Source of the DNA: Amnibacterium setariae | GTDB lineage: Bacteria; Actinomycetota; Actinomycetes; Actinomycetales; Microbacteriaceae | Assembly: GCF_003581425.1 (NCBI RefSeq) | Contig: NZ_QXTG01000002.1 | Coordinates: forward strand, 1,364,001-1,428,000 | Reading direction: 5' to 3' | Length of the DNA stretch: 64,000 bases | Translations under genes and position numbers: made by a program | Part shown: piece by piece, positions 333-19,473 of the stretch | How the letters are laid out: each line of letters opens with the position of its first letter | Position numbering within the stretch: the first letter of the stretch is position 1 | The notes under the pieces: model-generated | Seen by the model: only the letters and a program-made list of their open reading frames with translations | Told to the model about the DNA's origin: nothing | Database searches by the model: none

Positions 333-425
333 GTCTCAAAGCATCAACGGGAAGCGTTTCAGCACCTGGTGGCAACACGTCTCACTCCCCTACAGGCGAG
401 ACTCCCGGCTCACTGCCGACGAGCC
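333..425 (+). repeat. 24-bp island repeat, one clear unit (379-402) with degenerate flanking units
   Basis: Positions 379-402 match GTCTCA-N3-CCCTAC-N4-GAGAC. The preceding 333-355 and 356-378 and the following 403-425 share parts of the motif at the same spacing, suggesting a decayed head-to-tail array. It overlaps the 3' end of the gene at 410-601. Confidence 0.6.
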
Positions 426-601
426 TGCGATGGGGTACTCGCGGTTCCAGCCCCGCCCGTCGACGGCTCCGGGCGAGCATCGCGGATCCCGGCGGCCACC
501 CCGCGCCGTATGACCCAGTAGAGCGCGACCAGTCCACCGACGACCAGGATCACCGGTGCCACGTAGGCCATTACGACAAGGACAAAGGCTGCGCCGTGCA
601 C
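410..601 (-). CDS. Small single-pass membrane protein (63 aa)
   Basis: A 63-residue frame with GTG start at 601. Residues 5-31 (containing AFVLVVMAYVAPVILVVGGL) form one long hydrophobic helix, followed by RR and a polar Pro/Ser/Gly tail. No domain is recognised. An in-frame ATG eleven codons in would remove half of the helix, so the GTG is preferred. It lies in a run of minus-strand small genes separated by 24-bp repeats, and its last codons run into the repeat array at 379-425. The hydrophobic pattern argues for a real gene, but coding evidence for so short a frame is limited. Confidence 0.45.
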   Translation of the reverse strand: MHGAAFVLVVMAYVAPVILVVGGLVALYWVIRRGVAAGIRDARPEPSTGGAGTASTPSQARRQ

Positions 602-696
602 GCGCGCACCTTACGGAGGGACGTGCTTCAGAGACAGTCGGGACACCCGGACTGGCGGAGGCCGACACCCGCTGGCCATGTCCCCGCTGCCTGCTC

Positions 697-720
697 GTCT
701 CAATTGCCTGCCCGTGGGAC
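697..720 (+). repeat. 24-bp island repeat unit
   Basis: The unit reads GTCTCA-N3-GCCTGC-N4-GGGAC. It sits between the genes at 410-601 and 750-1130. Positions 680-696 look like a truncated preceding unit. Confidence 0.65.
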
Positions 721-749
721 GTGGCCGCAACAGTCGGGTCGCCTCGCCC

Positions 750-1130
750 TCACACGAAACCCCAACCGAGGACCCCAAGCACGACGAAGGCGACGAGTAC
801 TCGCGATGCCACGCGCCGCGTTGCAGCGGTCTTCTCCCGGCCCCGCATCCACCGCAGGAACACCGCTGCGACCGCTACCGCGACCAAGACGAAGCCGGCT
901 CCAATCACGAGGCGTTGCCACAGAAGCAGCCCCACCTCCGCCAGCGCCACACGGACTCCCGACCCGCAAACCAGGAGGGACAGGATCAGCGGAATGGACC
1001 TTCCCGAGATCGCGGCGTTCGGCCGGCTCCGCTCTGGGTGCGACGCGGAGTAGCGGCGCTCCCAACGCCAAGCTGCAATCGTCAGGACGACGCCCACGAT
1101 CAGGATGCAGACACCGACCACAACAGCCAC
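750..1130 (-). CDS. Polytopic membrane protein, unknown function (126 aa)
   Basis: GTG start at 1130 with an AGGA-type ribosome binding site a few bases upstream. Four hydrophobic segments are visible: residues 1-21, about 45-71, 74-94 and 111-126. Short charged loops (RWERR, RWMRGREK) fall between them and would lie in the cytoplasm under the positive-inside rule. No family is recognised. Neighbours are another small membrane protein downstream and an alpha/beta hydrolase upstream, all on the minus strand. The regular alternation of hydrophobic and charged segments makes this a convincing gene. Confidence 0.65.
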   Translation of the reverse strand: MAVVVGVCILIVGVVLTIAAWRWERRYSASHPERSRPNAAISGRSIPLILSLLVCGSGVRVALAEVGLLLWQRLVIGAGFVLVAVAVAAVFLRWMRGREKTAATRRVASRVLVAFVVLGVLGWGFV

Positions 1131-1189
1131 CCTGCTGTCCTACCTCGGTTCACGCTGCCAACACGAACGATGCAGCAGCTCCTGAGCGA

Positions 1190-1261
1190 GTCCCAGCAAC
1201 CCGCTCCCGAGACGTCCCACTTCCCTGCTCATGAGACGTCTTCCTCGCCTCGATAGCGAAG
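1190..1261 (+). repeat. Tandem array of three 24-bp island repeats
   Basis: Units at 1190-1213 and 1214-1237 are exactly contiguous, both starting GTCCCA and ending GAGAC. A third decayed unit follows at 1238-1261. The array lies between the gene start at 1130 and the end of the hydrolase gene at 1306. Confidence 0.7.
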
Positions 1262-1305
1262 GCAGGGCCGGTTCGGCGCTCACGCTCGCAACGGGCGAGC
1301 CGCGC

Positions 1306-2088: not shown

Positions 2089-2361
2089 ACCATGACGCTA
2101 GCTCTCTCGAAACTCGAGGTGTTCAGTTCACACCGCATACGGATTAGCGGTCCCATTGCTCTACGAACGGCACCCGCCCCATCAACGCCATCCGCGACCG
2201 TGACGACCCCTCCGCCTGCGGGATCGAGCGACCGGCGACGGCGTCGAAGAAACCCGACTCCAGTCGCACGTCACCACCGAGCAGGCGCAACCTCCAATAA
2301 CTTCACTGTGCCAAGCGCCCCCAAGCCCGACACGTCTCACAGCCCTGCTGGCAAGACAGGG
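2089..2361. other. Intergenic stretch with one repeat unit
   Basis: No convincing gene is seen in this 273-base stretch, which is visibly less GC-rich than its surroundings. It holds only the repeat unit at 2334-2357 next to the end of the following gene. Confidence 0.5.
2334..2357 (+). repeat. 24-bp island repeat unit
   Basis: The unit reads GTCTCA-N3-CCCTGC-N4-AAGAC. It lies five bases beyond the stop codon of the gene at 2362-2607. Confidence 0.65.
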
Positions 2362-2607
2362 CTAGGCGAGCGCCTCGGGTGGCGCTGTCAGCCACACAAG
2401 GTCCACACCCTGCGGTCCGTCTATGCGCGCCGCTAGTGCGTAGCCCCTGCTGCCGCGGTGCTGTATTGCCCACAGTTGCGCCTCCGCGACTGTGGCCCTA
2501 TCGATGTTGTAGGACGTCACTCGACCCGGCTCGAGCACCGTGACGCGGAAGCCAGACGCACGCGCCTCCTGCGTCGCATCTCGCTTGTCAACCAAATGGA
2601 CGTCCAT
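2362..2607 (-). CDS. Hypothetical protein (81 aa)
   Basis: An 81-residue soluble protein with ATG at 2607. No family is recognised. The sequence has an ordinary globular composition with two possible strand-turn-strand units (FRVTVLEPGRVTSYNI and YALAARIDGPQGVDLVWL) and a helix between them (RATVAEAQLWAIQHR). It is bounded by repeat units at 2334-2357 downstream and 2640-2710 upstream, so it sits alone like a cassette. No signal peptide or membrane segment is present. Confidence 0.5.
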   Translation of the reverse strand: MDVHLVDKRDATQEARASGFRVTVLEPGRVTSYNIDRATVAEAQLWAIQHRGSRGYALAARIDGPQGVDLVWLTAPPEALA

Positions 2608-2639: not shown

Positions 2640-2710
2640 GTCGCAACTGCCTGCCCGCGAGACATCTCGCTTCTCTGCCGTTGAGACTTTCCACTCCCCG
2701 CTCGTGAGAC
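2640..2710 (+). repeat. Tandem array of three 24-bp island repeats
   Basis: Units at 2640-2663, 2664-2687 and 2688-2710 follow each other without gaps; the last is one base short. Each ends GAGAC. The array fills the space between the genes at 2362-2607 and 2715-3152. Confidence 0.75.
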
Positions 2711-2714: not shown

Positions 2715-3152
2715 TCAGCCGTCGAAGTCCGCTAGCGAATAGACACGGTCGTTCCACTCCACCCGGTATCGATCGCGATTCTCGACCTCGAGACCATCGC
2801 CGTGCGATCCATAAGCGAGCACGCAGTGCACTGCGAGTAACGAGACCTCGTGCTGCTGCCAGCCGGGAGGCTGCCACAGCTGCAGCCCGTCGAGTCTGTC
2901 GCGGATCCGTCCGGATGCTCCGAATTGGATCGAGCGACGCAACCACGTGGAGCCAGCCGAAGGTTCGGACTTCCCGCAAATCACGGGAACGCAGCGCCCG
3001 AACCAACTGACCGCAAAGAGGTCGGTCGGAGTGGCACCCGAGCCCCCAAGTGCTCCGGCGTAGTAGAACCCAAGGGCCCTATCCAGGTCCTCGAGCACCA
3101 GTCGAGCGCTCGGGCTCGCTCTGGCATCAGAGTCGACCTTCCGGAGTGTCAC
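2715..3152 (-). CDS. Hypothetical protein (145 aa)
   Basis: A 145-residue soluble protein with GTG start at 3152. I do not recognise the family. It is rich in aromatic residues toward the C-terminus (LWQPPGWQQHEV, RVEWNDRVYSLADF), with no signal peptide or membrane helix. Its stop lies four bases from the repeat array at 2640-2710. The gene is on the same strand as its left neighbours, but the repeat arrays between them argue against tight operon coupling. Size and location would suit an immunity-type or cassette protein, but that is only a guess. Confidence 0.5.
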   Translation of the reverse strand: MTLRKVDSDARASPSARLVLEDLDRALGFYYAGALGGSGATPTDLFAVSWFGRCVPVICGKSEPSAGSTWLRRSIQFGASGRIRDRLDGLQLWQPPGWQQHEVSLLAVHCVLAYGSHGDGLEVENRDRYRVEWNDRVYSLADFDG

Positions 3153-3200: not shown

Positions 3201-3248
3201 CGTGTCAGATCCCGCATGTGCGATGTTCCGCTTGCCTGGTCGCGCGAC
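3201..3248 (+). repeat. Two degenerate 24-bp island repeats
   Basis: 3201-3224 and 3225-3248 keep the 24-base register and parts of the motif (TTGCCTG, final GCGAC) but have lost the perfect arms. Weaker than the other copies. Confidence 0.4.
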
Positions 3249-3295
3249 GCCCTGCCCTGCTCGTTGCCCCCTTGCAACTGGTGCAGGCTGGCGAC

Positions 3296-3589
3296 ATGAC
3301 CGACTTCCCTCAGGACGGAACAGAGCTGCCGGAAGGGTTCAGTAGTCGCTGGGCAAGCACGGTGGGCACTGAGGACGGGTTCGCCTTGGAACTGCTGAGC
3401 GACGACGAAGTCGTGCTCGAGGTGTATCGCGACGACCTACAGCAGGGCGCTTTGTTCTTGAGAACGTCCGGCCCCTCACGGGTACCCCTAGCGGCGGTCC
3501 ACTGGTTGCTCGAGACGGCTGCGCGCGAGATGCCGGCGCACGTCGCCGACGAGGATCGCGACTACGGCGAGGTTCCGCCCAAGTCGTAG
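3296..3589 (+). CDS. Hypothetical acidic protein (97 aa)
   Basis: The ATG at 3296 is chosen because the frame upstream of it runs through repeat sequence and reads as low-quality Cys/Arg-rich peptide. The product is acidic and soluble, with a beta-rich centre (FALELLSDDEVVLEVYRDD) and a helical segment VHWLLETAAREM. No family is recognised; size and acidity resemble small immunity proteins of contact-dependent toxins, but no toxin is next to it. It is the only plus-strand gene in the first 6 kb and is bordered by repeats on both sides. Confidence 0.5.
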   Translation: MTDFPQDGTELPEGFSSRWASTVGTEDGFALELLSDDEVVLEVYRDDLQQGALFLRTSGPSRVPLAAVHWLLETAAREMPAHVADEDRDYGEVPPKS

Positions 3590-3622: not shown

Positions 3623-3646
3623 GTCTCAGCGCCCTGCTTGTGGGAC
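3623..3646 (+). repeat. 24-bp island repeat unit
   Basis: The unit reads GTCTCA-N3-CCCTGC-N4-GGGAC. It lies in the convergent space between the genes ending at 3589 and 3707. Confidence 0.65.
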
Positions 3647-3706: not shown

Positions 3707-4402
3707 TCAGCGCGGGCGCGCGGCGCCGGCGGGAGCAGTGGGCCGGTCGAGGATGGCACGGAAAGCGCTGTGCACGTCCGCGAGGGCGTTGGCTCGGCCG
3801 TTCGCGTCGTCGCGCGCCGGGCCGAAGGTGACGACCGGCTCGAGGACCTCGAAGCCGACGAACTCGAAGATCCCACGGTGGATCGGGTAGAGGAAGCGGT
3901 CGAGGTCGCCGAACCTCCCACCTTCGGTGAAGGAGGTCTCGGAGCCGCCGGTCGTCGCGAGCACGATCGCGCGCCGGCCGTGCATCGCCGCGTCCTGGAA
4001 GAGGCCGAGCTCCCCGCCGAAGACGCCGCCGCTGACGAACACTCGGTCGACCCAGCCCTTCAGCACCGCGGGCAGCGCGAACCACCAGACCGGGAAGGAG
4101 AGCACGAGCAGGTCGGCGGCGAGCAACAGGTCCAGCTGGGGGGCGACGTCGGGCGCGAGCGTGCCGGCCGCCCAGGCCGATGCCTGCTCGGCCTGCGGCT
4201 TGAGCGGGCGGCGCGCGGCGGGGAACTCCGTGATGTCGAGCACGGGGTCGAAGCCGAGCGCGTACAGGTCGACGACGTCCACCCGGTGGCCGCTGTCGCG
4301 GAGCGCGGCCGCGGCCGCGTGCATCTGGGCGGTGCAGAACGAGTCGGGCTCCGGGTGCGCGTGCACGATCAGCGCCCGCGGGCGGGGGTCCTCAGTCGGC
4401 AT
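3707..4402 (-). CDS. NAD(P)H-dependent quinone/flavin oxidoreductase
   Basis: A 231-residue flavodoxin-fold protein of the NAD(P)H dehydrogenase (quinone) family, expected to be cytoplasmic and FMN/FAD-binding. Visible: the N-terminal nucleotide-binding strand ALIVHAHPEPDSF, the family segment FPVWWFALPAVLKGWVDRVF around residues 105-125, and ATTGGSETSF near 150. The ATG at 4402 is chosen because it places the flavodoxin strand right at the N-terminus; the open frame upstream is a shadow. It is the last gene of an apparent operon with the FAH protein (44 bp upstream) and a GntR regulator, suggesting degradation of an aromatic or quinone-forming compound. Confidence 0.85.
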   Translation of the reverse strand: MPTEDPRPRALIVHAHPEPDSFCTAQMHAAAAALRDSGHRVDVVDLYALGFDPVLDITEFPAARRPLKPQAEQASAWAAGTLAPDVAPQLDLLLAADLLVLSFPVWWFALPAVLKGWVDRVFVSGGVFGGELGLFQDAAMHGRRAIVLATTGGSETSFTEGGRFGDLDRFLYPIHRGIFEFVGFEVLEPVVTFGPARDDANGRANALADVHSAFRAILDRPTAPAGAARPR

Positions 4403-4446
4403 GTCGGGTCCTCGATCTCCTCGGAACAGGGCAGCGGGCGTCCTCG

Positions 4447-5301
4447 TCACTCGAACGTCTGAACCATCTGGCCGAGGTGCTCGATGCGGCTGACGAGTCG
4501 GTCGCCTTCGGCGAGGAACCGTCGCGGCGTGCGGCCCATGCCGACGCCCGCGGGTGTGCCGGTCAAGATCAGATCGCCGGGAAGCAGGGGCAGCACCGCA
4601 GACAGCCCGGCGATCAGGTGCGGCACGTCGACGATGAGGTCGGCGGTGGTGCCGTCCTGCACGACCTGCCCGTTCACCGCGCAGGACAGCCGCAGGGCGT
4701 CCGGGTCGGGGAGCTCGTCGGTTGTGACGAGCCACGGGCCGAGCGGCAGGAAGCCAGGGTGTGACTTGCCGAGGCTGAACTGCGGCGCCGGGCCCGCCAT
4801 CTGCAGCACCCGCTCCGACAGGTCCTGCGCCACGGTCAACCCTGCAACGTGCGCCCACGCGTCCTGCGGCGGTACGCGCCGGGCGACACGGCCGATCACG
4901 ACGGCGAGCTCGACCTCCCAGTCCACCTCGACCCGTCCGGTCGCGTCGCCGTGCGGCAGCGCGACGCGCGTGTTCGGTCCGGTGATCGCGGTGGCGAACT
5001 TCGTGAACACCGGCGGCAGGCCGGCGGGCGTCTCGAAGCCGGCTTCGGCGGCGTGGTCCCGGTAGTTCAGGCCGATGCCGAACAGCTGACGGGGCGCCGG
5101 CGTAGGCGCCCCGAGCGCCGCGGGGTCAATCTCCGCGCCGCCGTGCAGCGAGGTCCCGCTCGCCCAGGCGCGGAACTCGTCCCACCGCTCGTACACGTCC
5201 TGGACGGCGGGTCCGAACCGCCCGCCACTGACCTCGGCGACGTCGTGGGCGCGGCCGCCGTGCAGCAGCACGAGGCGTTCGTGCAGATTCGCGATGCGCA
5301 T
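4447..5301 (-). CDS. Fumarylacetoacetate hydrolase family protein
   Basis: A 284-residue protein of the FAH superfamily, whose members cleave or decarboxylate beta-keto and acylpyruvate substrates with a divalent metal. Family landmarks are present: GIGLNYRDHAAEAG (about 93-106), the metal-binding EVELAVVIG, VAQDLSER, LGKSHPGFLPLGPWLVT and [16 protein letters not shown] near the C-terminus. The ATG at 5301 has a GAGGAGAGG ribosome binding site seven bases upstream. It follows the GntR gene by 13 bp and precedes a quinone reductase, so a GntR-controlled catabolic operon is likely. A second FAH protein is encoded at 43785-44555. Confidence 0.9.
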   Translation of the reverse strand: MRIANLHERLVLLHGGRAHDVAEVSGGRFGPAVQDVYERWDEFRAWASGTSLHGGAEIDPAALGAPTPAPRQLFGIGLNYRDHAAEAGFETPAGLPPVFTKFATAITGPNTRVALPHGDATGRVEVDWEVELAVVIGRVARRVPPQDAWAHVAGLTVAQDLSERVLQMAGPAPQFSLGKSHPGFLPLGPWLVTTDELPDPDALRLSCAVNGQVVQDGTTADLIVDVPHLIAGLSAVLPLLPGDLILTGTPAGVGMGRTPRRFLAEGDRLVSRIEHLGQMVQTFE

Positions 5302-5314
5302 CAGGCGCCTCTCC

Positions 5315-6001
5315 TCAGTCGTTCGCGGGTGCCGGCCGGTCGAGCCCGGCGGCGGTGTGGCCGAGGTGCTCCGCGAGCAGCCGTTGACCGGCGTCGGCGT
5401 CGCGCTGCAGCGCGGCCCGCTCGAGCGCACGATGCTCATCCACGAAGCGGCGGTCCGGCGTGCGGTGCACCGACCAACGCCGCGCGAGCTCGGTCGCGGT
5501 CCACAACCGGTCGGACATCTCCAGCAGCACCGGGTTGCCGCAGGCCGCGAGCAGCGCGCGGTGGAAGCGGCGGTGCGCCTCGGACCAGGCATCGGAGAAG
5601 TGCGGCGACCCGTCGGAGTCGGTCAGCGGCGTTCCCTCGAGCCGATGCAGCGCGGCGCGGACCGCGGCCTCCCACTCCAGGTCGCCGTGCTCGATGGCGA
5701 GACGCAGCATCGGCGGCTCGAGCAGCTTCCGCGCCGCCGCCAGCTGCTGCCACCGCTCGTCGTCGACCGCGGGCACCTGGAACCCGCGATTCGGCAGCCG
5801 TTCCGCCAAGCCCTCGCCCACGAGCCGGAGCAGCGACTCGCGCACCACAGCCAGGCTCACCCCGCACCGGTCGGCCAGCGCCTGCGGCCTCAGCGCAGAC
5901 CGTGGCGCGACGTCGCCGCGCATGATCTCCGCGCGCAGCAGCGCGTACACCCGCTCGGAAGGGCTCCGGTGCTCCGCCTCGAGCATCACGACATCGACCA
6001 C
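5315..6001 (-). CDS. GntR-family regulator, FadR/FCD type
   Basis: A 228-residue regulator: N-terminal winged helix-turn-helix (about 10-75, with YALLRAEIMRGDVAPRSAL and CGVSLAVVRESLLRLVGEGL) and a C-terminal FCD ligand-binding domain whose metal-site histidines are visible in EAHRRFHRALL and DEHRAL. FCD regulators usually sense organic acids. It heads the operon with the FAH hydrolase and quinone reductase and is divergent from the PEBP gene. The 71-bp divergent region carries paired ATCGAT boxes that are a candidate operator, so autoregulation is likely. Confidence 0.9.
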   Translation of the reverse strand: MVDVVMLEAEHRSPSERVYALLRAEIMRGDVAPRSALRPQALADRCGVSLAVVRESLLRLVGEGLAERLPNRGFQVPAVDDERWQQLAAARKLLEPPMLRLAIEHGDLEWEAAVRAALHRLEGTPLTDSDGSPHFSDAWSEAHRRFHRALLAACGNPVLLEMSDRLWTATELARRWSVHRTPDRRFVDEHRALERAALQRDADAGQRLLAEHLGHTAAGLDRPAPAND

Positions 6002-6020
6002 GGCACCAGTATCGCCCAGA

Positions 6021-6044
6021 ATCGATTATCGTGCCATCATCGAT
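6021..6044. promoter_or_regulatory. Candidate GntR operator in divergent promoter region
   Basis: Two ATCGAT boxes separated by 12 bases (6021-6026 and 6039-6044) lie between gntR (start 6001) and the PEBP gene (start 6073). Position and symmetry fit an FCD-type GntR site; binding is inferred. Confidence 0.4.
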
Positions 6045-6072
6045 CTCATTTGATCCCCTTGAAGGAGCACGC

Positions 6073-6597
6073 ATGACCGAGAACGACCCATTCGCCCGAC
6101 TGCCCGAAGTTCCCGGCTTCACCGTCACCAGCAGCACGCTGCGGGACGGCGACGCCCTGCCGCTCGCGCAGCTGTCCGGCATCTTTGGGGTGCCCGGCGG
6201 CGGCGACGTGTCGCCCCAGCTGTCGTGGCGCGGCGCACCGCCCGAGACCCGCGGCTACGCCGTGACCATGTACGACCCCGACGCTCCGACCGGCTCGGGC
6301 TTCTGGCACTGGGCGGTCGCCGACCTGCCGGCCTCCGTCACCGAGCTGCCCGAAGGCGTCACCGACCTGCCGGGCGCGGCGTTCGCCTTGCCGAACGACG
6401 CCCGCGCCGCACGCTTCATTGGCGGCGCACCGCCCGCCGGCCACGGCCCGCACCGTTACTTCATCACGGTGCACGCGCTGGACACCGACCAGATCGGCGT
6501 GCCGGCAGACGGCACCCCGGCCTACCTCGGATTCACCATGGCCAGTCACATCCTCGCCCGCGCCACCCTGCACGCAACCGCCGAGACCCCCGCGTGA
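6073..6597 (+). CDS. YbhB/YbcL-family (PEBP) protein
   Basis: A 174-residue phosphatidylethanolamine-binding-protein/Raf-kinase-inhibitor-like protein. The two ligand-pocket motifs are present: YDPDAPTGSGFWHW (about 71-84) and GPHRYFITVHAL (about 132-143). There is no signal peptide, so it is cytoplasmic. Start ATG 6073 is preceded by a good ribosome binding site, GAAGGAG, five bases upstream. It is divergent from the GntR-FAH operon and may share its operator. The physiological role of bacterial members is poorly known. Confidence 0.9.
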   Translation: MTENDPFARLPEVPGFTVTSSTLRDGDALPLAQLSGIFGVPGGGDVSPQLSWRGAPPETRGYAVTMYDPDAPTGSGFWHWAVADLPASVTELPEGVTDLPGAAFALPNDARAARFIGGAPPAGHGPHRYFITVHALDTDQIGVPADGTPAYLGFTMASHILARATLHATAETPA

Positions 6598-6859: not shown

Positions 6860-7318
6860 TCAGCGCGCTAGCGTGCGGGTTTCGCTCCAGTCGAGGATGA
6901 GTCGGCGGGCCGCAAAGAGCCATCGGCCGTTGATCTTGCGGAAGTCGTCGAGGTAGCGGAGTGAGGCGACCATGATTCTGCGGTCGCCGTCCTCGGTCCA
7001 GAGGTGGTGGGCGATGGTGTAGCTCTCGCCGGTTGCCGTGTCGCCGTTGAGGTTGATGCGGCTCTGCCCGTTGAAGTGCGTGGTGACGTCGTACTGCCGG
7101 AGGTCTTCGAACACGGGCATGAGCGCGTCTCGGCCGTGGAGGACGTATGTGGGGTCGGTGTCGGCGCCGGCCATGTGGACCGCGAATCGGGTGTCCTCGG
7201 TGAAGAGTGCTGCTTGCCCTTCGGCGTCTCGTCGGTCGGCGCAGTGCGCGTAGGCGTCGAAGAGGTCGCGGATGGCGAAACGATCCTCGAGAGCGGGGGT
7301 GTCTGTGGTTGAGGGCAT
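6860..7318 (-). CDS. SnoaL-like / NTF2-fold protein
   Basis: A 152-residue NTF2-superfamily protein of the SnoaL-like type, a fold used by many small cytoplasmic cyclases, isomerases and dehydratases. The N-terminal helix LEDRFAIRDLFDAYAHCADRRD, the strand pair LFTEDTRFAVHM and the C-terminal WLFAARRLILDWSETR are typical. The catalytic chemistry cannot be read. The ATG at 7318 lies 57 bp downstream of the SDR gene on the same strand, so it probably forms one transcription unit with the SDR and MFS genes under the TetR at 9472-10062. Confidence 0.85.
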   Translation of the reverse strand: MPSTTDTPALEDRFAIRDLFDAYAHCADRRDAEGQAALFTEDTRFAVHMAGADTDPTYVLHGRDALMPVFEDLRQYDVTTHFNGQSRINLNGDTATGESYTIAHHLWTEDGDRRIMVASLRYLDDFRKINGRWLFAARRLILDWSETRTLAR

Positions 7319-8158: not shown

Positions 8159-8178
8159 GGCGATGTCCCTTTCGGTGG

Positions 8179-12615: not shown

Positions 12616-12726
12616 TCGCCCGCTCCTTCCCGAGAGGCCGGCTCCACCGCGGCGCCCGCGCTCGACAGGCGTTGCACGTCTCTCGCACGCACCCCGAGCC
12701 GAAACGACCGAAGGGTCAGCCCCGCA

Positions 12727-12759
12727 GGGCAGCGGCAGGACTGGTCCCTGCCGCTGCCC
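12727..12759. terminator. Bidirectional terminator
   Basis: A perfect 13-bp stem with a seven-base loop lies between the convergent CGNR and SDR genes. Confidence 0.7.
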
Positions 12760-12808
12760 GCACGGGCCTGGCTCCTGCCCCGCTCAGCGCGGTCGTGCCG
12801 TTGCGGGC

Positions 12809-13549
12809 TCAGACCGCGAGGCGGCCGCCGTCCACGGGCAGGACCGCGCCGTGGATGAAGGAGGAGGGGCCGGCGGCCAGGAAGACGATCGCATCGGCGA
12901 TCTCCTCGGCAGTGCCCGGACGACCTGCAGGGCCCTGGGCTGCCAGCGCGGCGAGGTCGTCTCCCATCACGGCGGTGCCTTCGGTCCTGGTCGGGCCCGG
13001 GCTGACGGCGTTCACGCGCACACCCTTCGGCCCGAACTCCGCAGCCCACGCCTTGGTCAGCAGCACCAGCGCGGCTTTGCTGGAGCCGTACAGGGCCATC
13101 CCGTCGGCGCCGAAGTCCGCCACCATCGTGGTCACGTTGACGATCGCGCCGTCGCCGCGCTGCACCATCGCCGGCGCCAGTGCGGCGACGAGGAAGTAGG
13201 GCGCTTTGACGTTGGTGGCGTAGACGCTGTCGAAGTCCGCCTCCGTCGTCGCAGGCGTCGGGCCGAACGGGAACACACCCGCGTTGTTGATCAGCACGTC
13301 GACCCGGTCGCCGGTGAGCCGCCGCGCTTCGGTGGCGACCACAGCCGCACTGGAGGCGTCGCGAAGGTCCGCCTGGATGAAGTCGGCTCGGCCGCCACGC
13401 TGACGGATGGTCTGCACGACGGCGTTGCCTCGCTCGACGCTCCGGCCGGTGATGACGACGTGCAGGCCGAGGAGCGCGAGCTTCTCGGCAGTCGCCCGTC
13501 CGATACCGCTCGTTCCGCCCGTGACGAGGGCGCTGTGGGAAGTAGCCAT
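12809..13549 (-). CDS. Short-chain dehydrogenase/reductase
   Basis: A 246-residue classical SDR: TGGTSGIG (10-17), NNAG (88-91), and catalytic Tyr154-x3-Lys158 (YGSSK), ending with the usual LPVDGGRLAV. Cytoplasmic, NAD(P)-dependent; substrate unknown. ATG 13549 places the Rossmann strand at the N-terminus; the open frame continues far upstream only as a shadow of the crotonase gene. It is divergent from the crotonase gene, and both promoters carry the CYGAACAGRTY core expected for the TetR at 14586-15155. Confidence 0.9.
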   Translation of the reverse strand: MATSHSALVTGGTSGIGRATAEKLALLGLHVVITGRSVERGNAVVQTIRQRGGRADFIQADLRDASSAAVVATEARRLTGDRVDVLINNAGVFPFGPTPATTEADFDSVYATNVKAPYFLVAALAPAMVQRGDGAIVNVTTMVADFGADGMALYGSSKAALVLLTKAWAAEFGPKGVRVNAVSPGPTRTEGTAVMGDDLAALAAQGPAGRPGTAEEIADAIVFLAAGPSSFIHGAVLPVDGGRLAV

Positions 13550-13568
13550 GAGAAGTCCTATCTGCACA

Positions 13569-13582
13569 AACCTGTTCAGGTT
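13569..13582 (-). promoter_or_regulatory. TetR operator before the SDR gene
   Basis: A perfect 14-base palindrome, AACCTGTTCAGGTT, lies 19 bp upstream of the SDR start. It contains the CTGAACAG core shared with the sites at 13665-13712 and 14559-14575. Confidence 0.65.
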
Positions 13583-13655
13583 CTCTGACCATAGCCCCCG
13601 CCTCGTCACGGTTGCGACCAGGAACACCGGCCCGTGCACCCCACCCCGACGCGAC

Positions 13656-13712
13656 TTGACAAGACCGAACAGGTCGGTACAGTTACCGATGTAGCCGAAC
13701 GGACCTGTTCGG
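13656..13712 (+). promoter_or_regulatory. Crotonase promoter with two TetR operator cores
   Basis: TTGACA (13656-13661) and TACAGT (13678-13683), 16 bases apart, form a promoter. CCGAACAGGTC sits between the boxes (13665-13675), and its reverse complement lies downstream at 13702-13712 inside the larger palindrome CCGAAC-N6-GTTCGG. This is a standard layout for repression. Confidence 0.7.
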
Positions 13713-13738
13713 TTAAGCGCACTGAGCAAGGAGCCGTC

Positions 13739-14503
13739 ATGACCACCCCCGCCTACTTCGACAAGTACCAGAACCTCGCCTTCAGCCGCGGCGAGGACGG
13801 CGTGCTGGTGATGCGGTTCCACACCGACGGCGGCCCGCTCACCTTCACCGGACAGACCCACGAGGACCTCCCCCAGGCCCTCGAGGACATCTCCCTCGAC
13901 CGGGACAACAAGGCGCTCGTGATCACCGGCACCGGCGACCAGTTCATGAAGGACATCGACGGGCCCAGCCTCGGCGAGATCTTCAAGCCCGCCGCATGGG
14001 AGAAGACCCGCGTCGAGGGCCGCAAGGTCCTCGAGCGCCTCCTCGACCTGCCGATCCCGGTCGTCGGCGTCGCCAACGGCACCGCAACCATCCACTCCGA
14101 GTACCTGCTCCTGGCCGACGTGCACATCGCCTCCGAAAAGGCCACCTACGGGGACTTCCCGCACCCCGCCTTCGGCATCACCGCCGGCGACGGCCTGCAC
14201 GTGGTCTGGGAGGAGATCGCCGGCACCGCCCGCGCGAAGTACCTCCTCTGGACCGGAGAGTCCATCGACGCGCAGACCGCGCTGCAGTGGGGCGTCGTGA
14301 GCGAGGTCGTCGAGCACGACCGCGCCCTCGAGCGCGGCCTCGAGATCGCCCGCAAGCTCGCCGCGAAGCCGGCGCTGTACCGGTCGCTGCAGAAGCAGAC
14401 GCTGAACCTCAACCTGCGCCGCCGCCTCACCCAGGACGTCCCGTTCGGCATGGCCCTCGAGGGCCTCACCGCCGCCGACCTCGCCTACCAGCAGCAGGCA
14501 TGA
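13739..14503 (+). CDS. Crotonase-superfamily enzyme, 6-oxocamphor-hydrolase-like
   Basis: A 254-residue crotonase-fold protein. The oxyanion and active-site region reads THEDLPQAL..., NGTATIHSEYLLLADVHIAS and FGITAGDGLHVVWEEIAG; it lacks the usual Gly-rich oxyanion signature of enoyl-CoA hydratases and instead resembles the 6-oxocamphor hydrolase (beta-diketone C-C hydrolase) branch, which has HSE and PGDG-type segments. A CoA substrate is therefore not assured. ATG 13739 has an AGGAG ribosome binding site. It is divergent from an SDR gene and upstream of tetR; a strong hairpin follows. Confidence 0.8.
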   Translation: MTTPAYFDKYQNLAFSRGEDGVLVMRFHTDGGPLTFTGQTHEDLPQALEDISLDRDNKALVITGTGDQFMKDIDGPSLGEIFKPAAWEKTRVEGRKVLERLLDLPIPVVGVANGTATIHSEYLLLADVHIASEKATYGDFPHPAFGITAGDGLHVVWEEIAGTARAKYLLWTGESIDAQTALQWGVVSEVVEHDRALERGLEIARKLAAKPALYRSLQKQTLNLNLRRRLTQDVPFGMALEGLTAADLAYQQQA

Positions 14504-14511
14504 CCCCGCGC

Positions 14512-14547
14512 GCGGTGGACGCCACCGGTTCCGGTGGCGTCCACCGC
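14512..14547 (+). terminator. Hairpin after crotonase gene
   Basis: A 16-bp perfect stem with a four-base loop, nine bases after the stop codon. Confidence 0.75.
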
Positions 14548-14554
14548 ACGGGCC

Positions 14555-14575
14555 TAGTCTGAACAGATCCGTTCA
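14555..14575 (+). promoter_or_regulatory. tetR promoter -10 box and operator
   Basis: TAGTCT (14555-14560) is a likely -10 box. TGAACAGATCCGTTCA (14560-14575) follows it, just before the tetR ribosome binding site, and contains CTGAACAGATC. Autoregulation is the likely meaning. Confidence 0.6.
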
Positions 14576-14585
14576 AGGAGTCCGC

Positions 14586-15155
14586 ATGGCAACCATCCCC
14601 CGCACCCGACGCCGCCCCGCCCTGGAACGCGTCGTCAAAACCGCGGACCGGCTCTTCTACGCCAACGGCATCCACGCCACCGGGGTGGACACCATCGCGG
14701 ACGAGGCGAACGTGTCCAAAGCGAGCATGTACACCTACTTCCGGACGAAGGACGATCTCGTCGGCGCCTACGTCGAAGGCCGCAGCCTCGCCTGGCGTGA
14801 CCACCTCACCGCCCAGCTCGACGCTGCAGACTTCTCCCCCGAGGCGAAGATCCTGATGGTGTTCGACCTGCTCGGACAGTGGTTCACCACCGACGAGTTC
14901 AACGGCTGCCCGTTCATCAACGCGGAAGCGGAGAGCACGAAGGACTCCCCCGCCCACGACGCGAACGTCAGCCACCGCAGCTGGATCCGCGGCCTGTTCG
15001 CCGACCTCAGCGCCCAAGCCGGCGTCACGGACCCGACCGCCACGTCGACCAGGCTCGCGATGCTGTACGACGGCGCGATGGTCGGCGCGCACACCGAACC
15101 CGCCATCGCCTGGGCCACCGAAGCCCGCGCAGCAGCAGCACTCCTGCTGCATTGA
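14586..15155 (+). CDS. TetR-family regulator of the SDR/crotonase cluster
   Basis: A 189-residue TetR regulator with helix-turn-helix around 35-60 (VDTIADEANVSKASMYTYFR) and a C-terminal ligand domain of the TetR_C_YxaF-like length containing NGCPFINAEAE. ATG 14586 follows a CAAGGAG ribosome binding site. Four copies of the core CYGAACAGRTY occur, before the SDR gene (13569), before and after the crotonase promoter (13665, 13702) and at its own start (14559), supporting control of the whole cluster. It probably forms an operon with the SDR 41 bp downstream. Confidence 0.9.
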   Translation: MATIPRTRRRPALERVVKTADRLFYANGIHATGVDTIADEANVSKASMYTYFRTKDDLVGAYVEGRSLAWRDHLTAQLDAADFSPEAKILMVFDLLGQWFTTDEFNGCPFINAEAESTKDSPAHDANVSHRSWIRGLFADLSAQAGVTDPTATSTRLAMLYDGAMVGAHTEPAIAWATEARAAAALLLH

Positions 15156-15196
15156 GCCACCGGTCGCCCGGACTAGGCGGCAGCGAAGGAACACGC

Positions 15197-16012
15197 ATGG
15201 ACCTGACCGACCGATCCGGGATCATCACCGGCGCCGGCAGCGGCATCGGACGAGAACTCGCCGTGCAACTCGCGACCAGGGGCGCCTCCCTGCTCCTCGT
15301 CGGGCGCCGGCAGGACGCGCTGAACGAGACCGCCGAACTCGTCACCGCTGCAGGCGGAATCGCCCACGTGTTCGTCGCCGATGTCACCGGCGAGAAAGCA
15401 CCCGAGGCGATTTTCGAACAGGCACGGGACCAGCTCGACACCGTGGACCTGCTGATCAACAACGCCGGCAACGTGCGCGCCGGGCGGCTGGAGGACACCG
15501 ACCCGGCCGACATCCGCGCCATGGTCGACCTCAACCTGACCGCTCCGATCCTGCTCACCCGCGCCGCTCTGCCGGAACTGCGACGCGCCGCCTCCGCCCG
15601 ACGAGCGCTCGTGGTCACCATCTCCAGCGGCATCGCCCTGGTGAACCTGCCCTTCTACACGACCTACGCCGCCACGAAGACAGGAGTCGCAGCGTTCGGG
15701 CACGCGCTGCGCCGCGAGCTCCACGGCACCGGCGTGCACGTCGCCACCGTCTATCCCGGCGCGACCGCCACCGCGATGATGGACTCCTCCCACGCCGGAG
15801 AAGCGCTCGGCTTCGGACGCCGCACTACCGCAGACGTCGTCACCGACGTGCTCGCAGCACTGGAACGGGACGAGCACGAGATCAACACCGCCCTCCCCAG
15901 CCGCCGCCGGCTGCAGGAGCTGCATGCCACCGCACCGCTGGAAGTCGACGCCGCACTGGCCCCACAGCTGGCCGACCTCGAGGCCGCCGTCCGCTCCCAC
16001 CGGAGCATCTGA
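15197..16012 (+). CDS. Short-chain dehydrogenase/reductase
   Basis: A 271-residue SDR: TGAGSGIG (11-18), LLINNAGNVR (85-94), and catalytic Tyr157-x3-Lys161 (YAATK). The C-terminal extension with LPSRRRLQELHATAP is typical of DltE-like oxidoreductases. ATG 15197 has a CGAAGGA ribosome binding site; the open frame upstream overlaps tetR and is a shadow. It follows tetR by 41 bp and is followed by a hairpin, so tetR-SDR is likely one unit, with the hydrolase downstream separately transcribed or coupled by read-through. Confidence 0.9.
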   Translation: MDLTDRSGIITGAGSGIGRELAVQLATRGASLLLVGRRQDALNETAELVTAAGGIAHVFVADVTGEKAPEAIFEQARDQLDTVDLLINNAGNVRAGRLEDTDPADIRAMVDLNLTAPILLTRAALPELRRAASARRALVVTISSGIALVNLPFYTTYAATKTGVAAFGHALRRELHGTGVHVATVYPGATATAMMDSSHAGEALGFGRRTTADVVTDVLAALERDEHEINTALPSRRRLQELHATAPLEVDAALAPQLADLEAAVRSHRSI

Positions 16013-16022
16013 CCCCTGAACC

Positions 16023-16049
16023 GGCAGCGTCGCGTGCGCCGACGCTGCC
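16023..16049 (+). terminator. Hairpin after SDR gene
   Basis: A perfect 10-bp stem with a seven-base loop, 10 bases after the stop codon. Confidence 0.6.
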
Positions 16050-16124
16050 ACTCCTGTGCCGTGCCGATCCGATCCGATCGGCGCGGCGCACCCCTGAGAG
16101 GGCGACTCGCCCGAAGGAGCTGCA

Positions 16125-16991
16125 ACGACCACCGCAACCCACCACCGCACCACCGAGATCGAGGGCCGCACCGTCGCCTACCGGGAAGCAGGCCCCGCCG
16201 ACGCTCCCGTGGTCGTGCTCCTCCACGGCTTCCCGGCCTCATCCGCCATGTTCCGCAACCTGATCCCCCAGCTCGCGGACCGGTACCACGTCATCGCACC
16301 CGACTACATCGGATTCGGGCACTCCGACGCACCTCGCATCGAGGAGTTCGAGTACACGTTCGACCACTTGACCGACGTCGTCGAGGCGCTCCTCACCCAG
16401 CTCGACGTGAAGACGTTCGCCATGTACGTGCAGGACTACGGTGCGCCCGTCGGATGGCGCCTCTACCTCCGCAACCCGGACCGGATCACCGCGATCGTGT
16501 CGCAGAACGGCAACGCCTACGAAGAAGGATTCGTCGACGACTTCTGGGCGCCGCTCTGGCGCTGGGCGAAGGACGGCAACGCGGCCGACGAAGCGATCCT
16601 GCGCAGCACCTTCACGACCGACCTCGTCCGCTGGCAGTACACCAACGGTGTCGAGGACCCCACCCTGGTCGACCCGGACACCTGGACTCGCGACGTCGCA
16701 CAGATCAACCGGCCCGGGCAGCCCGAGGTGCAGCTGGCCCTCTACCGGGACTACCCGACGAACCGACCGCTCTACCCCGTGCTCCAGCAAGCGTTCCGAA
16801 CCCACCCGAAGCCGCTTCTTGCCATCTGGGGCGAAGGCGACCAGATCTTCGGTCCCGGCGGAGCACGAGCCTTCACCAAGGACCTCCCCGACGCTCGCGT
16901 CGAACTGCTTCCCGGTGGCCACTTCCTGCTCGAGTCACAGCTCGACAACGTCGCCTCGTCCATCCGCACATTCCTCGCAGAGAACCTCTGA
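16125..16991 (+). CDS. Alpha/beta hydrolase, haloalkane-dehalogenase-like, with apparent ACG start
   Basis: A 288-residue hydrolase with HGFPASS, the nucleophile motif YVQDYGAPVG (Asp104) and PGGHFLLES containing the catalytic His. An Asp nucleophile is characteristic of haloalkane dehalogenases and epoxide hydrolases. The first in-frame conventional start is GTG at 16209, which would remove 28 residues including the first strands. A perfect GAAGGAG ribosome binding site lies at 16113-16119, five bases before ACG at 16125, and the frame from ACG reads as a normal N-terminus (TTATHHRTTEIEGRTVAYRE). The original ATG was probably changed to ACG; expression may be weak or lost. Confidence 0.8.
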   Translation, partial: TTTATHHRTTEIEGRTVAYREAGPADAPVVVLLHGFPASSAMFRNLIPQLADRYHVIAPDYIGFGHSDAPRIEEFEYTFDHLTDVVEALLTQLDVKTFAMYVQDYGAPVGWRLYLRNPDRITAIVSQNGNAYEEGFVDDFWAPLWRWAKDGNAADEAILRSTFTTDLVRWQYTNGVEDPTLVDPDTWTRDVAQINRPGQPEVQLALYRDYPTNRPLYPVLQQAFRTHPKPLLAIWGEGDQIFGPGGARAFTKDLPDARVELLPGGHFLLESQLDNVASSIRTFLAENL

Positions 16992-17211: not shown

Positions 17212-17520
17212 GTGACGATCTATCCGGGCGATCCCCGTGATCGCTTCCGGAGCCGACGAAGCCTTCTTCACGGACTCGCGGGTCTCCTGTTCCTGCCCGC
17301 GCAGGGACTCTTCCTGGTTCAGGCGCTCCGGACCGGAAACGCCGCGCTCTGGGTCGCATGGGTCGTGGTGCTCGTGGCCCTGATCGCCGCCGCCATCGTC
17401 TGGCTACGCGCGGACCACCACAGAGGCGGAGCAGCAGCGCCCTGGACTCCCGGACCGCTGCTCATCATAGAAGGCGTCGCTCTCCTACTTGGCCTGCCCG
17501 TTGCCTTCCTCATGCACTGA
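17212..17520 (+). CDS. Small polytopic membrane protein (102 aa)
   Basis: A 102-residue protein with three hydrophobic segments (about 22-40, 45-64 and 82-101) joined by short basic loops (RFRSRR at the N-terminus, LRADHHRGG). GTG 17212 is the most likely start; the frame upstream passes through the repeat pair. No ribosome binding site stands out and no family is recognised. It precedes an XRE-type regulator with its own membrane segments by 180 bp. Confidence 0.6.
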   Translation: MTIYPGDPRDRFRSRRSLLHGLAGLLFLPAQGLFLVQALRTGNAALWVAWVVVLVALIAAAIVWLRADHHRGGAAAPWTPGPLLIIEGVALLLGLPVAFLMH

Positions 17521-17699
17521 CCACCCCACAGCACTGGCTGTGCGCGAGCATCCGACCCACCTGGTACCAAGTGAGTGCGCTGCCCCGGTGCGCCGGGGTT
17601 GTCATGACGGTCGTCGCCGCTGGGTGACGGGCCGGTGGCGGCCGGTTGGCGTGTCGTGGCGGGCGGCTGACGTGGTGGCCCTCGAAGGTCGGAAGAACC

Positions 17700-18239
17700 A
17701 TGAGGACCATGAATCGCATGCAGATCACGACGCTCCGCCAGAATCTGGGTTGGACGCAGGAGCGCCTTGCTACGGAAAGCGGCGTCGGAGTCCGGACCGT
17801 CCAACGCTTGGAAGCTGGTCACGACGCGAGCCTCGAGACTTTGTCGCTCGTATCTGCCGCTCTGCGAGTTCCCGTGCGCGAGCTGTTCACTGCCGTCGAG
17901 GGACACGACCTCGATCCTCGCGTGGAAGCAATGGCGCTTCGGACAGAGCTGCAGCAAGGCGCCCGCGACCGGATGATCGCCAACGGTCGCCTGCTCTTCT
18001 TCCTGGTCGGCATCGCCGTCAGCGCGATCGCTCTGTTCTCCGGTCAGTGGGGAGCACTGATCTTGCTGGCCTACTGGGGCGGCTGCTACCTGCTCGTCCG
18101 ACAGTTCCGGCGCCACGTGCTCGAGCCCCGCCTGGATGCGGCATACCCGCTCTCAAGAACCACTCTGCGACCGAACGCTCACCGACGTACGCCCGTGGGC
18201 GGCCGACTGGCTGACGATGGCACCTCGAGCGCAAGCTGA
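17700..18239 (+). CDS. XRE-family HTH protein with C-terminal membrane segments
   Basis: A 179-residue protein. Residues 7-60 form a Cro/CI-type helix-turn-helix (LRQNLGWTQERLATESGVGV and TVQRLEAG), and about residues 100-140 form two hydrophobic helices (LLFFLVGIAVSAIALFSG and GALILLAYWGGCYLLV). A DNA-binding domain tethered to the membrane is implied. Starts at 17700, 17709 and 17718 are all possible; 17700 has GGAAG upstream. The adjacent 17212-17520 membrane protein may belong to the same function. Confidence 0.8.
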   Translation: MRTMNRMQITTLRQNLGWTQERLATESGVGVRTVQRLEAGHDASLETLSLVSAALRVPVRELFTAVEGHDLDPRVEAMALRTELQQGARDRMIANGRLLFFLVGIAVSAIALFSGQWGALILLAYWGGCYLLVRQFRRHVLEPRLDAAYPLSRTTLRPNAHRRTPVGGRLADDGTSSAS

Positions 18240-18307
18240 ACCGACTACGAATCACCCCAAGCCCCTCGATCGCGCGCCCTGCCGCCCGGTCCACCTGCTC
18301 AGGTGAC

Positions 18308-18331
18308 GTCTCAGTCCCCTGCACGCGAGAC
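18308..18331 (+). repeat. 24-bp island repeat unit
   Basis: The unit reads GTCTCA-N3-CCCTGC-N4-GAGAC, matching the consensus at every fixed position. A decayed unit may precede it at 18284-18307. Convergent region between the XRE gene and the gene at 18356-19384. Confidence 0.7.
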
Positions 18332-18355
18332 GCAGGTGGATACACGTCAGCGGCG

Positions 18356-19384
18356 TCAGGTGATCCGCCAGCGCCAGTAGTCCTCGGGATCTCGGTCCCA
18401 GTGCTCGTGCTCAGGGTCAGGCGCCGCCAGGTCAGTGAGCCAGAACGTCGCGTCCGGGTCCCAACCCGCCAGGAGGGTTTGGCCGCCTTCGACCGGAAGC
18501 GGTCTGCCTGCTGTGCTCAGGTAGGCGGCCATCGTGAGGTGGATCGCGTCGTACTCAGCAGCGGCCGCAGCGAAGTCCGGCATGAACCAGCGCGTGGCCT
18601 GCCCGGTCGCACGCCACCAGTCGTGCCGCCGGCTGGCGGACACCTCCAACGGCCACCGCTCGACGAGCGCGCGCCAATCTTCTGGACAGCGGAGTTCGAG
18701 TACGGCCGCGTCCGGCGGGACGGCGCGGCTACGAGCGAGCGCACGGTCGAGGCCGTATTCGTCCTCCTCCAACCGGAATCGGATCGGCACACCGTCCGAG
18801 GAGCGGCGACAGGTCTCGACGATGGTCGAGCCACCGACCCAGGGCTTCGACCACCACTCTCCGCTCCACGGTGCCGTCAGCTCCTCGGGCCGATCACGAG
18901 CGGCCCGAGCCTCGTCCTCCTGCACGTGCAGTCGCCAGCTCTCGAGCGCCGCTGATGCAGGAGTCTGCGGCGTGAAGGTCGGCTGGCCAGTGGAGCGGGT
19001 GGCTGTCTCCACCTGCCCATCGAGCTCGATGGAAGTTCCGAGGGTCTGGAAGCCTGGCGATGCGCCCGCGGCAGCAGCGACCTCTTGCAACGCCTTCCGC
19101 AGCGGATCGCTGGCGAGCACCTCGTCATCGAGGTCCGGCTCCTGCCAGTACCGCGCGAAACCCACGGCTTCACCGAACGCGATCAGCACAGCACTCTCGT
19201 CGGAACGAGCAAGAGCCTCCAAGTCCGTCGACTCGAGCACCTGACACACCAGCTCGAGAACCTCCTCGCGCGACACCGACCACGTCGGACGCCCAATAGC
19301 TGGCGGGCAGAACGCGTACGCGAGCTCGAGAAGCCACCGGCGCCCCCGAGGGCCCCCGACGAGATCCAGATCAGCCGAAGCCAC
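18356..19384 (-). CDS. Hypothetical protein (342 aa)
   Basis: A 342-residue soluble, acidic protein with ATG at 19384. I do not recognise a family. It begins with a helical region (LLELAYAFCPPAIG, EEVLELVCQVLE), has a tryptophan-rich middle (WSGEWWSKPWVGGSTIVETC) and a C-terminal part with PEDWRALVERWPLEV, WFMPDFAAAAAEYDAIHLT and FWLTDLAAPDPEHEHWD. There is no signal peptide or membrane helix. Codon use is ordinary for the window, supporting a real gene. It lies between two 24-bp repeat units near the integrase end of the island. Confidence 0.7.
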   Translation of the reverse strand: MASADLDLVGGPRGRRWLLELAYAFCPPAIGRPTWSVSREEVLELVCQVLESTDLEALARSDESAVLIAFGEAVGFARYWQEPDLDDEVLASDPLRKALQEVAAAAGASPGFQTLGTSIELDGQVETATRSTGQPTFTPQTPASAALESWRLHVQEDEARAARDRPEELTAPWSGEWWSKPWVGGSTIVETCRRSSDGVPIRFRLEEDEYGLDRALARSRAVPPDAAVLELRCPEDWRALVERWPLEVSASRRHDWWRATGQATRWFMPDFAAAAAEYDAIHLTMAAYLSTAGRPLPVEGGQTLLAGWDPDATFWLTDLAAPDPEHEHWDRDPEDYWRWRIT

Positions 19385-19449
19385 GTCGCGACGCTAACCG
19401 TCGCGCGTTGCACCGAGTCGGATCGCCGGCCGAACGCGCACCGCTGCTG

Positions 19450-19473
19450 GTCTCAAAGCCCTGCTCGCGAGAC
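19450..19473 (+). repeat. 24-bp island repeat unit, last copy before tRNA-Glu
   Basis: The unit reads GTCTCA-N3-CCCTGC-N4-GAGAC, an exact match to the fixed positions. No further copy was found from here to 64 kb. Confidence 0.7.

Follow-up and report, generated by a model that had tools for sequence, protein, structure and literature searches.

Direct 24-bp repeats resembling resolvase crossover sites bound putative gene cassettes in Amnibacterium

The repeat array in the window

The window is the whole analysed stretch of 64,000 nucleotides from Amnibacterium setariae, and an array of 24-bp repeats occupies its left part up to position 19473. The stretches between repeats, which appear from their sequence to behave as gene cassettes, are named as such in the list below. 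The gene caller used misses many of the cassette ORFs.

379..402, + strand: 24-bp crossover-type site, 27.4 bits
390..668, - strand: possible cassette ORF, 92 aa, without Pfam match
697..720, + strand: 24-bp crossover-type site, 29.8 bits
750..1130, - strand: cassette ORF, 126 aa, nothing in Pfam above the curated cut-off
1190..1237, + strand: tandem pair of 24-bp sites (1190, 1214), 21.9 and 31.4 bits
1306..2088, - strand: cassette gene for an alpha/beta hydrolase, 260 aa; cassette common to A. kyonggiense (G001 C1:851.3-852.4k)
2334..2357, + strand: 24-bp site, in the middle of which homology to the A. kyonggiense cassette ends
2362..2607, - strand: possible cassette ORF, 81 aa, without Pfam match
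2640..2710, + strand: three head-to-tail units (2640 and 2664, 24 bp; 2688, 23 bp)
2715..3152, - strand: cassette ORF, 145 aa, without Pfam match; partner at A. kyonggiense C1:1620.5-1620.8k
3202..3248, + strand: degenerate tandem unit pair; A. kyonggiense homology fades within the second unit
3218..3589, + strand: possible cassette ORF, at most 123 aa, without Pfam match
3623..3646, + strand: 24-bp crossover-type site, 26.6 bits
6750..6797, + strand: tandem pair of 24-bp sites (6750, 6774), 31.5 and 26.8 bits
17097..17144, + strand: tandem pair of 24-bp sites (17097, 17121), 21.0 and 29.9 bits
17646..18239, + strand: cassette ORF with HTH_3 domain
18308..18331, + strand: 24-bp crossover-type site, 31.7 bits
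18356..19384, - strand: cassette ORF, 342 aa, without Pfam match
19450..19473, + strand: final 24-bp site of the array, 33.9 bits
19574..20110, + strand: array border, C-terminal part of a tyrosine integrase that probably has no role at the repeats
20174..20247, - strand: tRNA-Glu (ctc), adjoining the integrase fragment

All 15 units named in the initial annotation are present and lie on the + strand, in the one common orientation it described. Its pattern, GTCTCA-N3-CCCTGC-N4-GAGAC, matches 13 of them at up to three mismatches, against 0.40 expected, and none of 100 shuffles reached 13. The remaining two (17097 and 2688, the last unit of the 2640 array) were recovered by a weight matrix, which scores the 15 units at 20.3 to 33.9 bits. 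As a control, two long regions totalling 885 kb were modelled in five first-order Markov simulations, which yielded 11 matches of at least 12 bits, the highest 17.9. The reported lack of copies from 20 to 64 kb holds, as the best scores there (13.3 and 12.1 bits) are below simulated matches. A degenerate pair at 3202-3248 had been missed; its second unit, at 17.8 bits, is within the simulated range, yet it is backed by homology.

Across 91 sites from all fetched Amnibacterium regions, the pattern is conserved in positions 1-6, 11-15 (CCTGC) and 20-24, but not at position 10. The consensus, GTCTCANNNNCCTGCNCGYGAGAC, has arms of only 5-6 bp, and the initial annotation's view that such stems make poor terminators seems fair. 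Another half-site adjoins 42 of the 91 sites, and apart from these the 10-bp flanks differ from site to site. The 24-bp units follow the gapless 24-base period previously noted, but the last of the three units from 2640 onward measures 23 bp (2688-2710), and the period there is therefore not exact. Nor are the tandem copies identical, as had been thought; those found have diverged.

Spread of the sites and boundaries of the cassettes

The window array continues 7.5 kb to the left of the window, to G000:C2:1356541 (G000 being this genome), and further sites lie at C1:55969-57984, C1:1362397-1364525 and C1:642427. The sites are therefore not confined to one island, contrary to the earlier description. 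Seven genomes of the genus were compared, among them A. kyonggiense (G001) and a fragmented draft, G003, and the sites recur in other Amnibacterium genomes. Sampled genomes elsewhere in the family and order gave at most three arms-only matches each. An IMG/VR pattern scan returned no exact match to the repeat.

Each of the ten delimited arrays (87 sites) has a single orientation, and the largest holds up to 26 sites. The 61 inter-site stretches have a median length of 1011 bp. This orientation and these gene-sized stretches speak against the REP-like mobile repeat suggested in the initial annotation. REP/BIME elements are dispersed palindromes found in both orientations and form a stable hairpin; they were rejected because each delimited array keeps one orientation and the arms are only 5-6 bp.

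Evidence on breakpoints comes from only three shared or duplicated cassettes. In a pair within A. kyonggiense, the bodies are identical at 543 of 551 positions. Their upstream sites agree in the right half (11/11) but not in the left (4/11), while the downstream sites agree in the left half (11/11) and differ from the centre onward (right half 9/11); outside, the flanks are at shuffled identity. The hydrolase cassette shared by A. setariae and A. kyonggiense (body 990/1098) has a downstream site alike in the left half (10/11) and not in the right (5/11), again with flanks at shuffled identity; its upstream end is uninformative (left 7/11, right 9/11). Breakpoints thus lie at or next to positions 12-13 in two pairs, and in the third, with a single readable end, homology fades at about 9-10. 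Collectively, homology ends within the site at all four informative or partly informative ends of the three pairs, and at the repeat middle where best resolved. Among seven further homologous pairs, another cassette with sites at both ends was not found, and four cassette regions also have homologues without sites.

Resolvase B and the array heads

The gene adjoining one G003 array encodes a small serine resolvase, B (PF00239, 2.5e-30; HTH_7, 1.4e-6), which matches the Tn3 resolvase 5cy1 at 4e-25. In their 11+2+11 layout, GTCTC arms and 24-bp length the sites agree with crossover site I of the small serine resolvases, and judged by sequence the unit looks like a site type already known from resolvase res regions, site I. 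This form and spacing, together with cassettes that break within the repeat, support the recombination site listed among the early suggestions. The view that the structure matches no described element stands for the array, within the literature searched, but not for the 24-bp unit.

In each of the five closest relatives of B, which are 52-42% identical, a perfect GTCTC/GAGAC inverted repeat precedes the matched region by 131-166 bp; it measures 24 bp in four of them and 26 bp in the fifth. Upstream of B itself are a 35-bp repeat at -43, a repeat at -110, and 24-bp units at -145 and -169, i.e., several inverted-repeat subsites, as a Tn3-type res requires. The G545 relative is similar (34 bp at -37, 24 bp at -131). 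GTCTC-type repeats were found upstream of 8 of 28 family resolvases versus 1 of 193 control windows. Among 44 further B homologues, none has the perfect 24-bp repeat and many lack any such repeat. Arms-only repeats at 23 resolvase loci number four on G003's own contig and 0 or 1 at the other 22, so that, in the DNA fetched, B-like resolvases of other genera have no array next to them.

Among the site-bearing genomes, B is present only in G003. In A. setariae an intact small resolvase was not found, only one resolvase-domain fragment, and no resolvases were found in G002 and G006. A. kyonggiense has two on contig C5, the smaller about 30% identical to B and with no GTCTC repeats around it. A tblastn search with B of 66 fetched Amnibacterium records returned two G003 genes, the 30% relative on G001:C5 and otherwise E values of 0.43 or worse. 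Plasmids gave no match at E<=1e-25 and IMG/VR gave none. Transposase was absent among the ORFs examined on the short G003 contig.

Besides the G003 array, one in A. setariae (C1:55856-57984) and one in A. kyonggiense start with resolvase-type accessory sites like those at B. This head motif (at most one mismatch) occurs once in each of these three genomes, always where an array begins, and is missing from the remaining four; the reversed motif, as control, matched once, in G006. Since each of these genomes has many sites but a single accessory motif, a full res is not present at each site. The head adjoins a serine resolvase in G003 only, and a tyrosine-integrase module in A. setariae and A. 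kyonggiense. Inverted repeats of 32-37 bp number 6 versus 2.8 in shuffles, three of which lie no more than 130 bp from a site; the head motif is the more telling indicator. The window array has no head.

Interpretation and comparison with known systems

We propose, with a probability of roughly 0.7, that the repeats are crossover sites of a small serine recombinase of the Tn3 resolvase family and bound mobile gene cassettes, the array being an integron-like library. A site would comprise two 11-bp half-sites around a 2-bp centre. The full platform, as in G003, would consist of the resolvase gene, the head of res-like accessory sites, and then alternating sites and cassettes, with all sites direct and pointing outward from the head. 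Double-strand cleavage by the enzyme at the central CT of two sites, followed by exchange of half-sites, would leave each cassette with the right half of its preceding site at one end and the left half of the following site at the other. Because the repeats are direct, excision and insertion would result, not inversion. We infer that the resolvase moves the cassettes, that these form free circles and that new ones are captured. Since the window array is head-less and the genome yielded no intact small resolvase, the array is probably a recombinase-less satellite or relic, perhaps of the head-bearing array at C1:55856-57984.

Alternatively, a tyrosine recombinase, either Xer-like or the island integrase, might use the repeats as its core sites, the conserved CCTGC block serving as overlap as in pdif modules; in that case the cassettes would be real but another enzyme would act on them. 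Breakpoints in the conserved core also fit an overlap of 5-6 bp, and a tyrosine-integrase module with a conserved palindrome adjoins the heads in A. setariae and A. kyonggiense, with 74 bp from the end of module homology to the head motif in both. Four of eight aligned modules end in an intact or degenerate half-site, but four of the eight are of the same kind without a head. Moreover, serine resolvase genes of other genera have an excess of GTCTC half-sites in their upstream DNA, the 24-bp spacing is common to the closest relatives of B, and the G003 head adjoins a serine resolvase. We therefore consider a tyrosine recombinase unlikely.

The sites might instead be res remnants of many Tn3-type transposons or miniature elements without any cassette system. 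The unit does resemble resolvase site I, and the literature describes miniature Tn3 elements that carry resolvase modules (PMC4133298). However, the unlike 10-bp flanks, adjoining half-sites excepted, mean that no common element surrounds the sites, which makes such remnants very improbable. Still slighter is the chance that the repeats bind a regulator or nucleoid protein and that cassette breakpoints coincide with them through other rearrangements. The arms would make a dimer-type binding site and nearly half of the sites adjoin another half-site, but homology ends within the site at every informative or partly informative end and gene-sized stretches are bounded in one orientation.

Beyond the crossover sites as such, we see about even odds that the system is a serine integron, i.e., a platform for cassette capture and storage that arose independently of integrons when a Tn3-type resolvase was recruited together with its res; it would have a head comparable to attI and head-less satellites such as the window array. 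In integrons, a single tyrosine recombinase family serves to accumulate single-gene cassettes. If the proposal is true, a different kind of recombinase lies behind an integron-like gene library, and cassette stockpiling can evolve from a common transposon part, the serine resolvase, convergently with integrons in an actinobacterial genus. This would be a reason to seek cassette arrays with other site sequences, and the system is open to direct tests of binding, excision and integration. It also raises the question of how lone 24-bp sites could be used by a resolvase that accessory sites normally restrain. For Tn3, two sites I without sites II and III gave no recombination and all subsites are called essential (PMC12217951), so lone sites would need a relaxed enzyme or the head as partner.

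In the literature searched, cassette arrays based on a serine recombinase were not described, and Amnibacterium and integrons were not named together in any paper. XerC/XerD-type sites have an 11+6+11 layout. The pdif/dif modules of Acinetobacter plasmids likewise place short recombination sites around small modules, there of one or two genes between 28-bp XerC/XerD sites (PMC6449649), whereas here the sites are chromosomal, 24 bp long, in one orientation and up to 26 per array. In its 24-bp length with GTCTC arms the site departs from a pdif-type XerC/XerD site.

The Tn3/gamma-delta resolvase and its res share with this system, in G003 only, a small serine recombinase with a resolvase HTH, as well as several inverted-repeat subsites upstream of the gene and direct orientation. 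Tn3-family resolvase cuts at the central 2 bp of site I (PMC12217951). The site is 24 bp here and 28 bp there, and here sites are repeated tens of times between genes with the accessory region kept on only three arrays. Elsewhere, resolvase exchange at res reportedly shuffles modules too, as attributed to Kholodii (2001, Gene 269:121), although those are modules of transposons and not a cassette array.

Integron arrays hold many small, mostly single-gene units between direct repeats, with one head per platform, and recombinase-less attC satellites exist. The Amnibacterium arrays are similar in that direct repeats (87 sites, 10 arrays) bound the putative cassettes, in a proposed platform with one head (one in each of three genomes, beside a serine resolvase in G003 only) and in probable recombinase-less satellites. 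IntI (TIGR02249) was over the cut-off in none of the seven genus genomes, with sub-threshold matches as in all 14 control genomes. The attC site is folded and has a GTTRRRY-type core, whereas the site here is short and double-armed, putatively cut at its middle, with no such core in the consensus of the 91 sites, and the cassette genes lie on either strand.

The 24-bp site and its distribution

All 15 units named in the initial annotation were recovered on the + strand, each at the coordinate assigned to it. The pattern proposed for them, GTCTCA-N3-CCCTGC-N4-GAGAC, matches 13 times in the window at ≤3 mismatches (0.40 expected; 0 of 100 shuffles attain 13). The remaining two were picked up by a weight matrix built from the sites themselves, and unit scores are thus not independent of the training set. 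A first-order Markov background (five simulated copies, two long regions, 885 kb in total) gave 11 matches of at least 12 bits, the highest at 17.9. The last unit of the triple array measures 23 bp. Among the 91 sites scoring 20 bits or more, the conserved blocks are positions 1-6, 11-15 and 20-24, while position 10, included in the proposed pattern, is not conserved. CT occupies positions 12-13 in 78 of these sites, and 42 of the 91 adjoin another half-site, matching in at least 4 of 5 letters, on one flank or the other (background, 1.8% per flank).

The repeat had also been described as restricted to one island. The array is present in the window, but it spans G000:C2:1356541-1383473 in the A. 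setariae genome (G000), starting 7.5 kb to the left of the window, and further sites lie at C1:55969-57984, C1:1362397-1364525 and C1:642427. At ≤2 mismatches, six of seven Amnibacterium genomes have matches (24 in G000, 29 in A. kyonggiense, 8 in G002, 10 in G003, 1 in G005, 2 in G006 and 0 in G004). At ≤1 mismatch, four of the seven match, as do 3 of 292 other family genomes with a single match each; the backward control likewise gave single matches in three genomes. With an arms-only pattern (10 in G000, 18 in A. kyonggiense; backward control maximum 5, in one genome), no genome outside Amnibacterium exceeded three matches among 299 family and 396 order genomes, partly overlapping sets.

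Ten arrays, delimited by hand, hold 87 sites scoring 17 bits or more, in a single orientation within each array. Eight other fetched regions with one to three such sites were excluded, among them G003:C138, which has one minus site and one weak plus site. Within the fetched stretches, sites lie downstream of and on the same strand as the nearest tRNA gene in eight of nine clusters, the window array being the single exception.

Cassettes between sites

Three pairs of related cassettes, i.e., stretches between two sites, were detected. A. kyonggiense carries a ~0.6-kb cassette in two copies 12.7 kb apart, with bodies identical at 543 of 551 positions. Their upstream sites agree in the right half (11/11) and not the left (4/11), whereas the downstream sites agree in the left half (11/11), have CT and TT at the centre and differ at 2/11 positions of the right half. 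Identity in the outer 100-bp flanks is 0.53 and 0.47 (shuffled, 0.46 and 0.49). The window hydrolase cassette also occurs in A. kyonggiense (body 990/1098). Here the downstream site agrees at 10/11 positions on the left and 5/11 on the right, the upstream end (7/11 on the left, 9/11 on the right) is uninformative, and the outer flanks give 0.45 and 0.47 against 0.49 shuffled. In the third pair (body 197/232), a degenerate tandem pair of sites is involved, and homology peters out around position 9-10 of its second unit. These breakpoints indicate that a cassette extends, to within a few bases, between the middles of two sites.

The ten arrays contain 61 intersite stretches of at least 100 bp (median 1011 bp). 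Mean GC is 0.66 in the 52 stretches below 2 kb, and flank GC is 0.74 in A. setariae and 0.69 in A. kyonggiense. A host-codon-usage model calls few cassette ORFs, and of 29 ORFs selected for a Pfam scan, 14 had no match at E≤0.001. The others include EamA and MFS transporters, an APH-fold phosphotransferase, HNH, VanZ, WYL, alcohol dehydrogenase and HTH_3 matches; the alpha/beta hydrolase match belongs to a single cassette that occurs in both species. Two multi-gene stretches (window 3707-6597 and 6860-16991), which the codon-usage model does call as host-like and which contain no sites, break up the cassette array.

Array heads, integrase modules and the window array

The G003 array starts with GTCTC-N25-GAGAC-N9-GAGAC followed by TGAGA, a head of res-like accessory sites. 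The main A. kyonggiense array has the identical layout, and the short array at G000:C1:55856 differs by N26 and one degenerate inner half-site. The head motif GTTCTGAGACANNNNNTGAGAC has one match each in G000, G001 (A. kyonggiense) and G003 at ≤1 mismatch; the other four genomes give just two matches, each with 3 mismatches, and one match came from the backward control.

Next to the G000 and G001 heads is a tyrosine-integrase module, which carries a conserved palindrome, and we infer that this module is the vehicle carrying the island into tRNA genes. Its integrase may, less probably, act on the 24-bp sites themselves. Of eight such modules that were aligned, four terminate in a half-site, intact or degenerate, and the other four lack one there. 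A strongly conserved ~120-bp palindrome lies beside island tyrosine integrases at G001 C1:872809-872932 and seven similar places (fetched regions L032, L063, L065, L066, L068 and L077) in three Amnibacterium genomes. The region G001 C1:836k-887k (L063-L065), with three successive tyrosine-integrase modules ending at tRNA-Lys, is an accretion of islands.

A tyrosine-integrase fragment and tRNA-Glu border the window array, which is most plausibly a satellite or relic: it lacks the head motif, and G000 has one resolvase-domain fragment alone, with no relative of the G003 resolvase B in its fetched regions. No site is listed at ≤2 mismatches around the corresponding A. kyonggiense tRNA-Glu (C3:554067). 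At window 19574-20110, a single open frame fuses a Hen1_L-like stretch (5.9e-17) to a tyrosine integrase end (6.5e-8), and looks like a decayed border. In A. kyonggiense, 48 bp of this corresponding tRNA-Glu gene recur exactly at G001 C3:529499-529546, ~24.5 kb before it, and may mark an island there.

Resolvase B and the putative cassette system

Beside its array, G003:C32 (5.2 kb) carries two resolvase-domain genes oriented away from it. Gene B (L073:983-1618) matches PF00239 and HTH_7 and aligns with Tn3 resolvase 5cy1 at 4e-25; it has a Ser and an Arg at the positions of the active-site Ser and a neighbouring Arg of that enzyme. B was found in this single genome, a draft of 350 contigs. 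The second gene, A (L073 195-866, minus strand), lies behind B and has 42% identity over 185 aa to a small resolvase on G001:C5.

Small serine recombinases use sites laid out in this way, 11+2+11 with inverted arms. Of 28 family resolvases (29 fetched, one excluded), 8 have a GTCTCR/YGAGAC inverted repeat around their upstream region vs. 1 of 193 control windows, and lone GTCTC/GAGAC words number 2.96 per 360 bp there vs. 0.84. Among 49 homologues of B, each of the five closest (52, 47, 46, 46 and 42%) carries a perfect repeat, 131-166 bp ahead of the matched region, of 24 bp in four and 26 bp in one. In none of the other 44 is a 24-bp repeat perfect: two homologues at 40% carry one with a single mismatch (-144 and -146), and the perfect repeats present in eight span 22-32 bp. 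Upstream of B itself lie 24-bp units at -169, -145 and -110 together with a 35-bp repeat at -43; the 47% relative shows a 34-bp repeat at -37. The 24-mer thus lies at the position that site I takes in B's relatives. G340 and G670, from other genera, each hold three identical copies of a 24-bp GTCTC/GAGAC repeat, possibly the res sites of a multicopy transposon.

PMC12217951 reports that Tn3 sites I by themselves gave no recombination, so that lone 24-bp sites would require a relaxed enzyme or a partner head. Two findings count slightly against the explanation given below: four cassette regions also have site-free homologues, and one breakpoint falls a few bases off centre. Judged by site likeness and gene neighbourhood, the 24-bp sites are probably crossover sites of a serine resolvase, and the arrays would then form an integron-like cassette system built on an enzyme of the Tn3-resolvase family.
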